Assembly: GCA_018004935.1 (NCBI GenBank)
Contig: JAGNBF010000034.1
Location: 20,000-65,920, forward strand
DNA length: 45,921 nucleotides
DNA from: Chloroflexota bacterium
GTDB taxonomy: Bacteria; Chloroflexota; Anaerolineae; Promineifilales; Promineifilaceae
Direction of reading: 5' to 3'
Every line of letters begins with the position of its first letter. Within the stretch, counting starts at the first letter, position 1. Positions 39,635 to 45,921 of this stretch are shown in pieces. Position numbers and translations under genes: made by a program. The notes under the pieces are model-generated. The model saw nothing but the letters and a program-made list of their open reading frames with translations. It searched no databases and had not been told where the DNA came from.

Positions 39635-40432
39635 CTACTCTCCCCCTTGAGCAGATTCAATGGCTTCGGCGTACACCTCATAACGTTGAGCACCAAATAA
39701 CATGATGTCGTTAATAGCGAAGCTAGGTCGGGTGAGGATGCCCTGGTCACGGCGGATGGCGTCGAGGCGGGTGACGTTGGCCTGTCCTATTCCGTTGTCG
39801 TAACAGTCGCCAAAGATGGCCTTATCTACCCCCACAGCGGTCGCGGCCGCAATGAAATACTCCCTATCCGCATTCCACAATTCATCCTGGTGAGCAAAAA
39901 ATTGGTCGTGAATGGCCCAGTAGGCGTCTACACTTTGCTGGCCGATGCAATCTGCGGCCGCGTGGCTATTCAAACTCGCGTTACCATGATCCAACACATG
40001 CCAGAAGATAATCTTAACTTGCCCATTATTGACGTAATTCTCAATGATTTGCGGTTCTGCGCCTAACACGTAGGCGCGGCAAGCCGTTCAGAGGAAGTCT
40101 GAGTAATCAATGAAGGTGACGGGGGCATCGGCGCGGCCGCGGAAGAATGTGCCATCTTCATTTTTGCCATTAAACGGGACGGTTGTGGCCGTGGGCTGAT
40201 CGGTTGGGGCTTCCGTAATCACTGGGGAAGCAATCGCCGTTGGCTCGTCGGCTACTGAAGCGGTTGCCGGGGGTGGGGCCGTGTTGGTGAGGGGGATAGC
40301 GGTGGGGGTGGGGCGACTCGCGGCCGCGCCCGGGAGCGTTGCCGCTGTGGGCACAACCGTGGGCACTCCATCTTCATCACCCCGACAAGCAATTAGCAAC
40401 AAGAGTAACAAGAAAACCAACCATTTTTTCAT
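39635..40432 (-). CDS. DsbA-like thioredoxin-fold lipoprotein, predicted selenoprotein (in-frame TGA = Sec115)
   Basis: One 265-residue gene interrupted by a single in-frame TGA at 40090-40088. Part 1 (residues 1-114) has a lipoprotein signal (LLIAC, Cys16), a Thr/Pro-rich linker (about 24-87) and the start of the thioredoxin_4 fold, APVTFIDYSDFL. After TGA the same frame continues T-A-C-R-A-Y-V-L-G-A, then EPQIIENYVNNGQVKIIFW, HGNASLNSHAAADCIGQQ and RPSFAINDIMLFGAQRYEVY, the normal order of the family. TGA replaces exactly the first Cys of the YSDFxCxxC active site, giving U115-T-A-C118. A SECIS-like hairpin follows. GAGG precedes the ATG. Alternative: a nonsense mutation, but the 144 codons downstream are otherwise intact. 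Role: extracytoplasmic thiol-disulfide exchange. Confidence 0.8.
40059..40090 (-). promoter_or_regulatory. Predicted bacterial SECIS element
   Basis: Minus strand: TGA (40090-40088), 10 nt, stem GCGCCTA (40077-40071), loop CGTGT (40070-40066), stem TAGGCGC (40065-40059). The stem is 7 perfect pairs, the loop is 5 nt with G at its second position, and 17 nt separate TGA from the loop. CGG/CCG (40085 region with 40054-40052) could close a lower stem. This fits the bacterial SECIS consensus as I know it: a small loop with G in the first two positions, 16-37 nt after the TGA. Confidence 0.72.
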
Positions 40433-40433
40433 A

Positions 40434-40567
40434 ATACCTCGTCTCGTTACCGGACACTCTGGTTTGAGGCGTAAGACATCCTCAAATGCCGCTTGTGGTC
40501 AACCCATTCGCATCTGAGGATGCTCACTCCTCAGTTTTGAAAACTGTCCGGTAGCTGGATACCTCGT
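40434..40567. mobile_element. 116-bp MITE-like element with 9-bp target duplication at the selenoprotein start
   Basis: ATACCTCGT flanks the element on both sides (40434-40442 and 40559-40567). Inverted ends contain TACCGGACA (40448-40456) and TGTCCGGTA (40546-40554). Inside are smaller inverted pairs such as TTTGAGG/CCTCAAA. The left duplication copy contains the Shine-Dalgarno GAGG (minus strand) of the selenoprotein gene. Confidence 0.75.
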
Positions 40568-40609: not shown

Positions 40610-40915
40610 GATTGGCCACACCCTACAATGAACCCAACCCCCCAGGGCGATTGCATACTCACCCCAATGAACCCACTTCCCTAACGATTCCCGGCAAGAA
40701 GGGAGAAAAAAACAATTCGAGCCGTTTTTCGCGGGCGAATGCCCGCGAAAAACGGCTCCTAAAAAGTTCCCCGCCCCTGGGGGCGGGGTTAGGGGTGGGG
40801 GAAATCCGAGTATGCAATCGCCCTACCCCCCCTGACGATTCCCATTGGCTGGGGAAAACTGCTCATACAAGGTTCCCTGCCCCTGGGGACGGGGTAAGGA
40901 ACGGAAAAAGCGTTT
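40610..40915. repeat. Repeat family R4 copy and partial copy
   Basis: Hairpin GAGCCGTTTTTCGCGGGC (40719-40736) pairs with 40741-40758 as 18 perfect bp, followed by AAAAAGTTCCCCGCCCCTGG. A second, hairpin-less relative lies at about 40830-40905 (GGTTCCCTGCCCCTGGGGAC). No gene is seen. Confidence 0.78.
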
Positions 40916-40926
40916 AGGTGCTTGCC

Positions 40927-41628
40927 CTACTTTTCGCCCACATGAATGGCAATTGTGCCAAACATAAATAGCTTAAACCGGACATTGAGGAAACCGGCCT
41001 GGCGCATAGCTTCGGCAAGGGCCTGGGGGGTACGGAATTGTTGGGTACTGTCGGGCAGATAACGGTAAGCCTCGGATTCGCCGGTGATGAGGCGGCCCAG
41101 GGTGGGGATCACATAGTTGAGATGGAACAGGATGAAGGGTCGGAGCAGGTTGCGCTTGGGGGGGCTAGATTCGAGGATGACGACGCGGCCGCGGGGCTTC
41201 AGCACCCGCATCTGTTCCCGCAACGCCTTATCCACATCAATCACATTCCGCATGAGAAAACCAGAGGTCACGGCGTCAAAGTAGTGGCTGGGAAACGGCA
41301 GAGACAACGTATCAGCCCCGACCCACTGGATGGGTTGCCGTTCCGGATAGAGCTTGCCCGCCTGCATCATTTCCAGGGTGAAATCACCCCCCACCGCCTG
41401 CAAACCGGGAACCTGTTGCATCCCCTCGTAGGCAATGTCCCCCGTGCCGGTGGCAATGTCGAGCAAACGGCCATTCGGGGGGATATTGGCTTGCTGGATG
41501 ACATAGCGCCGCCAGCGCAAATCCTGGCCGAAGGTCATCAGCCGGTTCATGCGGTCGTAACGCCCGGCAATGCGGGCAAACATCGTTTGGACGTAATGGG
41601 CGCGTTCTTGCCCGGTAAGATGAGCCAT
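40927..41628 (-). CDS. ubiE: UbiE/MenG-type quinone C-methyltransferase
   Basis: 233 residues. SAM-binding motif LLDIATGTGDIA lies near residue 56. Typical family segments are FARIAGRYDRMNRLMTFGQDLRWRR at the start, SLPFPSHYFDAVTSGFLMRNVIDVDKALREQMRVLKPRGRVVILE, then YRYLPDSTQQF. It methylates demethylmenaquinone (or a ubiquinone precursor) at the membrane face. No clear ribosome binding site. Upstream (41637-41660) are TGTATTGG/TTATTG units like those before the JAMM gene. Confidence 0.93.
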   Translation of the reverse strand: MAHLTGQERAHYVQTMFARIAGRYDRMNRLMTFGQDLRWRRYVIQQANIPPNGRLLDIATGTGDIAYEGMQQVPGLQAVGGDFTLEMMQAGKLYPERQPIQWVGADTLSLPFPSHYFDAVTSGFLMRNVIDVDKALREQMRVLKPRGRVVILESSPPKRNLLRPFILFHLNYVIPTLGRLITGESEAYRYLPDSTQQFRTPQALAEAMRQAGFLNVRFKLFMFGTIAIHVGEK

Positions 41629-41688: not shown

Positions 41689-42294
41689 CTAAAGTTGATT
41701 GATGATAGCCTGCCAATCTTCAGTACGCCATAGTAGACTGCCGGTATTGAATAAGTAACCTTTGTTGTGAGAGAACTGACCAATACCCTCAAACTGAACA
41801 TCGCCAGCGACATTTTCTTTTAACTTGATACGCTCCAAGTCACCTGGATTGATGGGGCCATTCCAACCGTAAACAGTGTAATGCTTCTTACCGCGTTTGC
41901 CTTGATAAGCGAGCGGTTGATAATCCATATTGCGGCGAACAAAGCCACAAATGTAAGCCGGAATGGGGGTAAAGGATGGCAAATCAGCGTATATCTCGTC
42001 TGCCTCTTCCGGTGTCAAGGCTCCTACCGTTTCGCCACGTCGAAGCACTTTGTCTTTGAAGACACTAATTTCTTTGAAGAAAGCAAACAAATGGTCACGC
42101 CCTGCCCCAACCTTAACGAAGATATGAATATCGGCATGATTGAACTGATCACCAGGAATATCTAGCCAAATACCATTCCATTTACTCGTTTTGACACTGA
42201 GATTAAGGCGAGGGGTGCGGTAATGGCTCTTCGCTTCACGAATACGATGAATATCAGTGGGTAAGAAGGTTTCTAATTGACCTGCTTGATGGCC
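41689..42294 (-). pseudogene. C-terminal part of an interrupted nuclease-like gene
   Basis: About 202 residues of likely genuine sequence starting near GHQAGQLETFLPTDIHRIREAKSH. The frame stays open back to 42411, but its first 35-40 codons read through repeat element C and are unlikely to be native. Segments NLSVKTSKWNGIWLDIPGD and NHADIHIFVKVGAGRDHLF look like the core strands of a restriction-endonuclease fold. This is an inference; no named family was recognised. Removing about 65-68 bp of repeat (about 42295-42362) could rejoin it in frame to the upstream piece (42360-42734). AT-richer than the surrounding core genes. Confidence 0.55.
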
Positions 42295-42362
42295 TAGTAG
42301 TGCGACAGACAAGATTTGTCGGTTGGAAGGTGGTGGCACGGTCAGGAGACCGGCCACAGCTA
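42295..42362. repeat. Element C core inserted between the two gene parts
   Basis: GGTGGCACGGTCAGGAGACC followed by GGCCACAGC (42332-42360, inverted C core), preceded by CGACAGACAAGATTTGTCGG. The upstream gene part hits its stop codon exactly at the edge of this repeat. Confidence 0.65.
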
Positions 42363-42725
42363 TTCGACGGAATAAGTTTGTTGAACTACTAGTTCTGCCT
42401 CGATACCCCATTGTTGCTTCAAGAACAGGGTAAAAGCGTATTTACCTAGATATTGAAAAACCAGGTTTCGCCATAACCGCCATGGGTTCTTTTGCAAACC
42501 TGTTTTTGAAAGGCCTATTTGGCGTAATGTTTTTAGTGCATAGGCAGATGCAGTGGTGTAACCATCTGCATCTATTACTACAAAGGAAGGCAGAAACTGT
42601 TGTGATAACCAGTTATAGAATTCGATTTGTACAGATTGGCCTTGATAGGCATCTTCAGCTACCTTCAAGGCAACTTCGATATCTACTGAAAGACGTTCTG
42701 CGATAATTTGAATTTCTTGGTTCAT
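42360..42725 (-). pseudogene. N-terminal part of the interrupted accessory gene
   Basis: About 121 residues from MNQEIQIIAERLSVDIEV (an alternative ATG lies at 42734). Hydrophilic, with IEFYNWLSQQFLPSFVVIDADG and NPWRLWRNLVFQYLGKYAF; family not recognised. It ends ...QQTYSVE with a TAG at the junction to element C, so the original protein probably continued into the piece at 41689-42294. It might alternatively be a complete short protein. Confidence 0.5.
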
Positions 42726-42765
42726 AGTAAACATTCCACTCTGGTTTGAATCTTATTTTCACAAC

Positions 42766-43530
42766 TTACCAGTTCATGGATTCTGAATGGTATGTAATCT
42801 GCTGATGTGTGACAACCTGTTCTTTCAGAGTGAGTTGAGAGATGGGATCAAATATAACAGTCATTTTAGGCACATCATTCAAATTATTGACAACCACTAA
42901 ACTATAATCTTGTTGATATTCTTGGGCTTTTAGAAATTCGTTTTTTGTGAGTCTAATACTGCCATAAACAGAACGAAGCCCTTTAACCTCAGCCAGGATA
43001 TAACGTGATGGTATCTGTATTTGAAAATCATAACCATCACCAAACAAACGGGCATCTTCTAATAAGCCTTCTTTGAAAAGATCAATTTCCTGGTAATTAT
43101 GTATAAAATACAGTTCTGCCTCCAAGCCTGTAATTTGTAATTGTTTGAACTTACTTTTAAGTACCGGACTACCAATGGTCAACAGTTCATCGGTAACTTC
43201 AAATTTGCTCCTAATATATAGTTTTACGACATCAGCAAACTCAGTCGCATGAAGTGTACCAAATAGAGAATCTATGAAAGTTTTTCGATGCAGATATGTA
43301 GTGCCTTTTTGCCACCAACCCTTTCGCCCATTGTCAAAAAAAGGATCAAACAAATCCTGCCGATTTTTAACGACACCGGTAGTTGCCGCTATGTTTTTTT
43401 GGACGAAGTGCTGAAAAAAAGCTGATTTTGTTGAGAAACCAAAGGCTTTGACAAAATCCATGTTGAATTTCGCCAGACCATAACCAATCAAATTAAGTAT
43501 TTCGTAATTTTCATGTTTGGTATCTGACAT
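42766..43530 (-). CDS. DUF3883-like PD-(D/E)XK nuclease-domain protein
   Basis: 254 residues. The C-terminal half has the DUF3883 (NOV_C) pattern GYDFQIQIPSRYILAEVKGL, then IRLTKNEFLKAQEYQQDYSLVVVNN. The Asp and the Glu-x-Lys match a PD-(D/E)XK nuclease core. The N-terminal half (NLIGYGLAKFNMDFVKAFGFSTKSAFF) has no recognised family. Such proteins are frequent in restriction and other defence loci. It lies upstream of the interrupted gene on the same strand, and codon use is AT-richer than in neighbouring core genes, suggesting horizontal acquisition. No methyltransferase is in the window. Confidence 0.65.
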   Translation of the reverse strand: MSDTKHENYEILNLIGYGLAKFNMDFVKAFGFSTKSAFFQHFVQKNIAATTGVVKNRQDLFDPFFDNGRKGWWQKGTTYLHRKTFIDSLFGTLHATEFADVVKLYIRSKFEVTDELLTIGSPVLKSKFKQLQITGLEAELYFIHNYQEIDLFKEGLLEDARLFGDGYDFQIQIPSRYILAEVKGLRSVYGSIRLTKNEFLKAQEYQQDYSLVVVNNLNDVPKMTVIFDPISQLTLKEQVVTHQQITYHSESMNW

Positions 43531-43791: not shown

Positions 43792-45921
43792 TCATTCGTC
43801 AGCATCAAATTCTATCTCCAAATCATCATCCAGGGCATCACTGCCCATTTTGGTACGGGGGGATGATGTAGAGGAGGCGGATCCCTCTTCAGAGCCGTTG
43901 CCCACTATTTCACGGGCCTTGCTCGTTCCCGTTGGCGGGCCGATGATACCCTGCTCTTCCATCAGGTCAATGAGCCGGGCGGCGCGGGTATAACCAATGC
44001 GAAACCGGCGCTGTAACAGGCTGGTAGATGCCTTTTTTAACTCCCGCACCATCGCAATTGCCTCTGGCAACAAGTCGTCTTCAACTTTCGCGGCCGCTTC
44101 CTGGGCGATTAACTCTTCCCACAATGGCTGGTTTGCCTGGGGATGAGCAGGAGCGGACTGAGGTGTGAGGGCCGAAGACTGAGCCGGTTTGACCTCTGCC
44201 TGACGGCTGACCGGCTGACGGCTGACTGCCTGACCGGCTGACCGGCTGACGGCTGACGGCTGACCGGCTGACCGGCTGACCGGCTGACCGGCTGGCGGCT
44301 GACTAGCTGGCGGCTGACCAGATGGTTTCGCCGGGAGCCACCGAGGTTCAGGATCCACTGGCCGATTGGTGGAAAAGGTGGCCGCTGGGGGAACAGCTTT
44401 GGGATCTGTGTTGATAACCGGTGGTGGAACAGGTGTAGGTGAAGGAGCGACAGGGGGACGTGGCGACGCGGCGAGGGAGCGAGGGGGCGACGCGGCGATT
44501 GATGACTGGTCACTGCTCACGGGTGACTGTTTACTGTTGACTGTTGACTGTTCACTGCCTACCGTCACCGCATGAGTCTCCGGCGTAATCAAGTTGGTGC
44601 GGCGGGCGCGTTGCCAGTAGGCAATGAGTTTGTCCAGTTCGGCATCACCCACATAACAACCCTGGAGACGGAGTGGCGCGGCCGCGTCCGGGCTTTGAAA
44701 GAGCATATCCCCCTGTCCCAACAATCGTTCCGCCCCTACGCTATCCAGAATCACCCGGCTGTCTATGCTAGAAGCAACAGCAAAAGCAATGCGGGCCGGG
44801 AAGTTGGCCTTGATCAACCCCGTAACCACATCCACCGATGGGCGTTGCGTGGCCAGAATCATGTGGATGCCGGTCGCCCGGGCCATTTGGGCCAGCCGGG
44901 TAATACCTCGTTCCGTCTCTTCGGGAGCCAGCATCATCAAGTCTGCCAATTCATCAATGATGATGACAATATAGGGGAGTTTTTCCCCCTTTTCCTTCAA
45001 TAACTTTTTATTGAACTCCTGAATATTGCGCACGCCCGTGGCCGAAAACGCCTTGTATCGTTTATCCATCTCGCGCAAGGCCCATTGCAATGTCCCAACC
45101 ACCCGTTCCAAATCTACCACCACCGGAGCCGCCAGATGGGGTATACCGTTATACCCGGTTAGTTCCACCCGTTTGGGGTCTACCATCACCAACTTCAGGT
45201 CGTCGGGGGTATTTTGCAGGAGCAGGCAGGCGATAATGCCATTAACACACACAGATTTACCAGAACCGGTAGCCCCAGCGATGAGCAGGTGCGGCATTTT
45301 GGTCAGATCCGCCGAAACGGCTTGTCCCGCGACATCCTGCCCCAGGCCAATCGCCAGGGGGGATTTGATTTTAGTGAACGAGGCAGATTCCATTACGTCG
45401 CGTAGGGAGACAATGGCTTTGGCGGTGTTAGGTACTTCGATGCCTACATACCCTTTGCCGGGAACGGGGGCCTGGACGCGGATGCTTTTGGCCGAGAGAG
45501 CCAGGGAGAGGTCATCGGCCAGGCTGGCAATTTTACCGACTTTGACTTTGGTTCGTTTGCCACTGCGTTGTTCTACGAAAAGGGGTTCAACGCCGTACTG
45601 AATGACGGTTGGTCCCGCATTGGTCTCGACATGACGGACGGGCGCACCAAAACTTTCCAATGTTTTTTCGATAGTGACAATTTGTTCACGAATGTGGTCG
45701 TTGTTGACATTTTGATCCGTGCCTATCTCCAACATCTCGGCCAGGATGGGTAGCTTCCAGTTTTGGGCTGGGGCCTGCCCCACAAAAATGGGTTGAGGGG
45801 CGGGGGCTTCGTCAACATTCGTTGGTTTGGCCGGGGGAGTAACTTGCCGATTGGCGCTGGCCCCAGGCCGATGGGGACGCTCCGGGGGGGTAGCTTTTGT
45901 TCCCGTGGTGGGGGCCGGAGC
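43792..45921 (-). CDS. ftsK: FtsK/SpoIIIE DNA translocase, 5' end outside the window
   Basis: The frame is open to the window edge, so only the C-terminal 709 residues are seen. A Pro-rich linker is followed by the motor: Walker A GATGSGKSVCVNG, Walker B YIVIIIDELADLMM, and the IHMILATQRPSVDVVTG block. A low-complexity insert of about 180 residues (SEQSTVNSKQSPVSSDQSS, then Pro-rich, then PVSRSAGQ repeats) separates the motor from the C-terminal winged-helix gamma domain (ELKKASTSLLQRRFRIGYTRAARLIDLMEEQGIIGP). It pumps DNA at the division septum and aids dimer resolution. A GTG at 45783 is an internal possibility, but the full protein should start further upstream with membrane segments. Confidence 0.93.
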   Translation of the reverse strand, partial: APAPTTGTKATPPERPHRPGASANRQVTPPAKPTNVDEAPAPQPIFVGQAPAQNWKLPILAEMLEIGTDQNVNNDHIREQIVTIEKTLESFGAPVRHVETNAGPTVIQYGVEPLFVEQRSGKRTKVKVGKIASLADDLSLALSAKSIRVQAPVPGKGYVGIEVPNTAKAIVSLRDVMESASFTKIKSPLAIGLGQDVAGQAVSADLTKMPHLLIAGATGSGKSVCVNGIIACLLLQNTPDDLKLVMVDPKRVELTGYNGIPHLAAPVVVDLERVVGTLQWALREMDKRYKAFSATGVRNIQEFNKKLLKEKGEKLPYIVIIIDELADLMMLAPEETERGITRLAQMARATGIHMILATQRPSVDVVTGLIKANFPARIAFAVASSIDSRVILDSVGAERLLGQGDMLFQSPDAAAPLRLQGCYVGDAELDKLIAYWQRARRTNLITPETHAVTVGSEQSTVNSKQSPVSSDQSSIAASPPRSLAASPRPPVAPSPTPVPPPVINTDPKAVPPAATFSTNRPVDPEPRWLPAKPSGQPPASQPPAGQPVSRSAGQPSAVSRSAGQAVSRQPVSRQAEVKPAQSSALTPQSAPAHPQANQPLWEELIAQEAAAKVEDDLLPEAIAMVRELKKASTSLLQRRFRIGYTRAARLIDLMEEQGIIGPPTGTSKAREIVGNGSEEGSASSTSSPRTKMGSDALDDDLEIEFDADE

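Follow-up and report, generated by a model that had tools for sequence, protein, structure and literature searches.

A further member of the Rcas_1661 (NF041057) selenoprotein family in an uncultured Chloroflexota from the family of Promineifilum

Known UxxC selenoproteins and the gene under study

DsbG-like selenoproteins of bacteria were already counted by Zhang and Gladyshev in 2006 (PMC1794560), and a review of May 2026 (PMC13188914, Table 1) lists two groups with a UxxC motif that can be compared with the gene described here. These are: (i) the DsbG-like selenoprotein, represented by the NCBIfam model NF041057 and credited to the 2004 prokaryotic selenoproteome, and (ii) form 1 of the DsbA-like selenoprotein, represented by PF01323. 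The former model bears the name "Rcas_1661 family thioredoxin-like (seleno)lipoprotein"; a literature search found no paper naming Rcas_1661, and the model accession only in PMC13188914. Another system for comparison is BdbD of B. subtilis (structures 3eu3/3eu4), the oxidase of the BdbC/BdbD pair, which has a DsbA-like fold and a Cys-x-x-Cys motif. BdbD is extracytoplasmic and membrane-tethered.

The DNA analysed in this study (45,921 nucleotides, hereafter the window) contains two reverse-strand open reading frames, 40088-40432 (114 aa) and 39635-40069 (144 aa), which share one reading frame and are parted by a TGA codon plus six sense codons. The initial annotation joined them into a single lipoprotein-linker-Thioredoxin_4 protein, with the TGA on the first Cys of the CxxC motif, and both points were borne out by the read-through sequence. 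It comprises 265 residues and consists of a lipobox, a Thr/Pro/Ala-rich linker and a domain with the motif SDFL-U115-T-A-C118-R (Table 1). A profile search with the read-through protein placed Thioredoxin_4 (PF13462) at residues 94-259 (E 8.7e-22).

Table 1 Features of the selenoprotein gene and its neighbours in the window.
Feature	Coordinates	Strand	Basis or remark
Full CDS, predicted Sec-containing DsbA-like lipoprotein, 265 residues	39635..40432	(-)	Stop TAG at 39635-39637
Predicted signal peptide and lipobox LLIAC, Cys16 as putative lipidation site	40385..40432	(-)	Sequence; Cys16 nearly invariant in orthologs
Linker, low-complexity, Thr/Pro/Ala-rich, about residues 17-88	40169..40384	(-)	Sequence; low model confidence
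TGA codon, predicted selenocysteine 115, first position of UxxC	40088..40090	(-)	Sequence and ortholog alignment
Cys118, putative resolving Cys of U-T-A-C, invariant	40079..40081	(-)	Ortholog alignment
SECIS hairpin, 7-bp stem (40071-40077 with 40059-40065), loop CGUGU (40066-40070)	40059..40077	(-)	Folding and covariation
DsbA/BdbD-like thioredoxin domain, residues 88-265	39638..40171	(-)	pLDDT about 97-98; Pro236 (candidate cis-Pro), Cys162/Cys210 invariant
Putative Shine-Dalgarno-like GAGG just 5' of ATG	40433..40447	(-)	Sequence
UbiE/COQ5-type methyltransferase gene, upstream neighbour conserved in the family	40927..41628	(-)	Locus comparison
FtsK/SpoIIIE gene, farther upstream, recurrent in relatives	43792..45783	(-)	Locus comparison

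The gene is a further member of the known selenoprotein family NF041057, found in an uncultured Chloroflexota of Promineifilum's family. The model was matched with an E-value of 5.4e-85 and 284.9 bits (cut-off 190) over its positions 2-246 of 247, corresponding to residues 6-260 of the protein. The features that the model describes are also present, i.e. a thioredoxin-like domain, a lipoprotein signal (lipobox MKKWLVFLLLLLLIAC, with a nearly invariant Cys16, as read from the sequence) and UGA at the first redox-motif position, which in this family is Sec (UGA) or Cys. It differs from other members in lineage and divergence only, the nearest orthologs found sharing about 50% identity with it across the full alignment. 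The lipid-anchored form, with which the initial annotation was not acquainted, has therefore already been described, both as NF041057 and in PMC13188914. Form 1 of the DsbA-like selenoproteins resembles it in combining UxxC with the DsbA superfamily, whereas the protein studied here falls under PF13462 and scores 22.6 bits with PF01323, below the gathering score of 25.6. Classical DsbG (NF008657, cut-off 124 bits) was absent among the matches of the window protein at E-values up to 0.1.

Predicted fold and redox function

The structure of the protein was predicted with AlphaFold2 from an alignment of 27 family sequences (described below). The mean pLDDT was 86.6, reaching about 97-98 in the domain and remaining low in the linker. 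Comparison of the model with solved structures revealed BdbD of B. subtilis and actinobacterial and Wolbachia DsbAs as the closest, with BdbD matching at Z 23.4 (rmsd 2.1 over 174 residues). The identity with BdbD is about 22%, and the first Cys of its motif corresponds here to the predicted Sec; the likeness would include the extracytoplasmic, membrane-tethered placement. Sec115 immediately precedes a helix (116-123), which is the usual location of the nucleophile. The invariant P236 is a candidate cis-Pro, and C162 and C210 may form a structural disulfide.

We commit to the prediction that the product is a surface-tethered thiol-disulfide oxidoreductase; the extracytoplasmic UxxC oxidoreductase proposed by the initial annotation is in line with the fold, the lipobox and the motif. 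The host genome encodes one VKOR, adjoining a separate all-Cys DsbA (C74), and two CcdA/DsbD-type (DsbD_TM) genes, one of them on the contig of the window, and thus candidate partners exist for oxidation as well as for reduction. A serious contender, to which we give somewhat less than an even chance, is that the protein is a real selenoprotein which receives electrons from a CcdA/DsbD-type carrier and serves as a reductase or a peroxidase-like enzyme, and not as a disulfide-forming oxidase. The two carrier-type genes speak for this, as does the position of the VKOR beside a different DsbA, with which it may already constitute the oxidant pair; moreover, selenols are strong nucleophiles. On the other hand, the nearest solved folds, BdbD and DsbA, are oxidants, and no neighbouring gene points to a reductive partner. 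The balance tilts modestly towards an oxidase.

Conservation of the TGA codon and the SECIS hairpin

All 52 genomes of the host's taxonomic family contain some related domain, and the top-scoring matches are genes whose only internal stop is one TGA. The alignment used above comprises the window's own sequence and one each from 26 other genomes, representing 15 other genera. All of its 27 members match NF041057 and display the motif [DE][YH]SD[FY]LUxxC with one TGA each; S111, D112, L114, U/C115, C118, C162, C210 and P236 are invariant. In a search of the class (396 genomes), one of the 46 best matches was a Cys form and the other 45 were genes with a single TGA. The TGA-bearing orthologs, at 32-50% protein identity, originate from independent assemblies, and the UGA gene is also carried by named MAGs of Anaerolineae, Caldilineales and Ardenticatenaceae, as well as by one of Promineifilum (locus L125; NCBI lineage Chloroflexota, Promineifilaceae). 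A scan of genome contigs with a single protein query gave no relatives, and with an alignment query it gave 28. Two Cys orthologs were found, G360 (TGT, CPTC) and L132 of a Chloroflexales MAG (TGT, CAAC), and both of these genomes retain a tRNA-Sec match over the cut-off. As for the two questions about close homologs posed by the initial annotation, the codon is TGA in the 26 other genomes and TGT in the two Cys orthologs, and the half of the protein downstream of it has not decayed in relatives but is under strong purifying selection.

The hairpin 3' of the UGA has a 7-bp stem (GCGCCUA/UAGGCGC) and a 5-nt loop (CGUGU) with G at loop position 2; the distance from the UGA to the loop is 17 nt. 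These properties agree with the initial annotation, which had, however, placed the stem directly after the codon; it starts 10 nt past it. The bSECIS rules (PMC13188914, Fig. 2A) require a loop of 3-9 nt, a stem of 4-16 bp, G in loop positions 1-2, a distance of 16-37 nt from the UGA and a minimum free energy of at most -7.5. The hairpin of the window (-14.6 kcal/mol) passes all of them, as do 32 of 41 orthologs in their MFE fold, while the remaining 9 miss at least one strict rule. Taken alone, the window hairpin folds no more strongly than shuffled sequences (z -0.67 to -1.76), and under synonymous recoding of the window alone all 7 pairs arise 16% of the time, which is not significant. Since these single-sequence statistics are weak, the claim of a hairpin rests on the comparison of orthologs.

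That comparison revealed the loop C-G-U-G-N in 41 of 41 distinct UGA orthologs, with the seven stem pairs changing together. In a formal count on 40 ortholog sequences, 95% of the cells were paired (73.8% in shuffles), 61 cells were changed on both sides (20 in shuffles) and the covariation score was 0.634 (0.235 in shuffles); no shuffle reached the observed value of any of these measures. When the stem partner was slid by 1-3 bases, at most 48% of the cells were paired and at most 10 double changes remained. Many stem changes are at synonymous sites, where the third codon base of Leu tracks Tyr/His and that of Gly tracks Ala/Ser. Tyr occurs with Leu-A 22 times (against 2) and His with Leu-G 12 times (against 0); Gly-C accompanies Ala, and Gly-A accompanies Ser (p about 1e-7, which is indicative only, the sequences being related and not independent). 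Both Cys orthologs have lost the stem and the loop.

Alternatively, translation could terminate at the UGA to release a 114-residue lipoprotein and reinitiate at GTG 40067-40069 to yield a separate protein. This GTG lies six codons past the TGA, where the 144-aa frame begins, and each of the 41 UGA orthologs has it. However, the two Cys orthologs, whose frame is uninterrupted, lack the GTG as well as the hairpin, so that the CGUG loop accounts for the conservation of this codon. In addition, Cys118, located between the stop and the GTG, is invariant, which indicates that the spacer is selected as protein, and a stop at this site would split the thioredoxin fold; reinitiation is thus very improbable. 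Still less credible is a pseudogene or a sequencing error, i.e. a TGA derived from TGC, TGT or TGG by mutation or wrong base call. Either would typically show itself as one stop in a frame that is intact elsewhere, but purifying selection acts on both sides of the TGA, the hairpin covaries and the host possesses the Sec machinery (see below). Conservation of the same TGA in independent assemblies at 32-50% identity means that it is not a base error.

Beyond the close orthologs, 20 further loci were fetched, of which 19 (in the range L088-L106, from other genomes of the class) were chosen for a weaker match holding one TGA. In 19 of 19 the TGA lies on the first motif Cys, as UPYC, UPFC, UGYC or UYTC. 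The protein of one locus (L102) has three domains, of which only the first contains U, and another (L103) combines UPYC and CPFC in a two-domain frame. With NF041057, L102 scored 402 bits and nine single-domain pieces scored 171-192 bits, all but one of these pieces falling just short of the cut-off of 190. Tentatively, and with confidence that falls short of even, we suggest that Rcas_1661-like DsbA domains of these Chloroflexota broadly took up Sec and that the mixed Sec/Cys multidomain forms may act as a surface Sec-to-Cys disulfide relay.

Selenocysteine machinery, genomic context and significance

The host assembly (7.98 Mb in 229 contigs, 96.6% complete; window on contig C170) was searched for the Sec machinery, whose absence the initial annotation had regarded as evidence against its reading. 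The complete set was found: a tRNA-Sec gene with anticodon UCA (63.2 bits), and SelA, SelB and SelD with profile scores of 568, 364 and 376 bits, respectively, all above the curated cut-offs. The selD gene has an in-frame TGA at SCAGUAAKLG, the known Sec site and catalytic position of SelD. A second host gene thus appears to use Sec, and the host SelD is itself predicted to be a selenoprotein. The stretch 3' of this UGA (locus L018) contains CACGUGUUG, resembling the CGUGU-type loop of the lipoprotein gene. If UGA were instead decoded as a different amino acid, such as Trp, or Cys through a general change of the code, the frame would likewise be open, but the probability of this is negligible, as SelA, SelB, FtsK, UbiE and others read here are open without internal TGA, the codon occurs among the host genes examined only in the lipoprotein gene and selD (each time at a known Sec position), and the host has a tRNA-Sec.

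The palindromic octamer GCGGCCGC (NotI site) is present in 50 copies in the 45.9-kb window, where about 1 (order-1 model) or 2.5 (order-3 model) are expected, and in 23 copies in 13.9 kb of the contig bearing the tRNA-Sec gene (C222, L020), and it is rare in the loci of relatives. Its abundance in both contigs argues against misbinning. In character it is a HIP1-like abundant octamer.

Among UGA-bearing genomes, a full SelB above the cut-off was not found in three (G035, G050 and G315); G035 and G315 do have tRNA-Sec, and G035 and G050 are incomplete. SelB matches of 404-411 aa were excluded from the count, their size and score range being those expected of EF-Tu. The genome of G315 (9 Mb in 7 contigs; L084, L129) combines the UGA gene and tRNA-Sec with a match to a SelB fragment of only 195 aa.

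The UbiE/COQ5-type methyltransferase gene belongs to a conserved neighbourhood, forming one cluster common to 13 of the compared loci (window included), and the ftsK gene recurs in several of them. In the window the order on one strand is ftsK, ubiE and the selenoprotein gene, with three additional ORFs between ftsK and ubiE (41689-43530). These three are absent from the compared loci; one has a NOV_C domain (PF13020) and two are without a Pfam match, and they possibly represent an inserted restriction or defence-type cassette. Inspection by eye also revealed a perfect inverted repeat with 18-bp arms and a 4-nt loop (GAGCCGTTTTTCGCGGGC...) at 40719-40758, between ubiE and the selenoprotein gene, and, at 40440-40560, just 5' of the start codon, repeats around CCGGACA/TGTCCGG and GAGGATG/CATCCTC, partly as inverted pairs.

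With high confidence, the locus is predicted to be a genuine NF041057 (Rcas_1661) selenoprotein gene in which UGA 115 is read as Sec; the machinery, the conserved TGA and the covarying hairpin all support the residue assignment made by the initial annotation. From the gene structure, machinery, TGA conservation, covarying hairpin, fold and family membership, all established by computation, we infer Sec insertion, lipidation and redox chemistry as follows. SelB with Sec-tRNA(UCA) would dock on the hairpin just 3' of the UGA, and the ribosome would insert Sec at position 115. The product would be exported and lipidated at Cys16, with the flexible linker tethering the domain outside the membrane. 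Sec115 would attack and Cys118 resolve, in a selenenylsulfide/selenol-thiol cycle, through which the BdbD/DsbA-like domain may oxidise, reduce or isomerise thiols of exported proteins.

The biology of this protein is already catalogued as a family, and the gain is one of confirmation and extension. Gene callers without Sec awareness report two fragments at 39635-40432. The 41 hairpins, whose CGUG loop never varies, offer a good entry point for studying SECIS recognition by the SelB of Chloroflexota. With selA found in 43 of the 52 genomes examined, most of the family of these Promineifilum-type bacteria appears to rely on selenium for its surface thiol chemistry.
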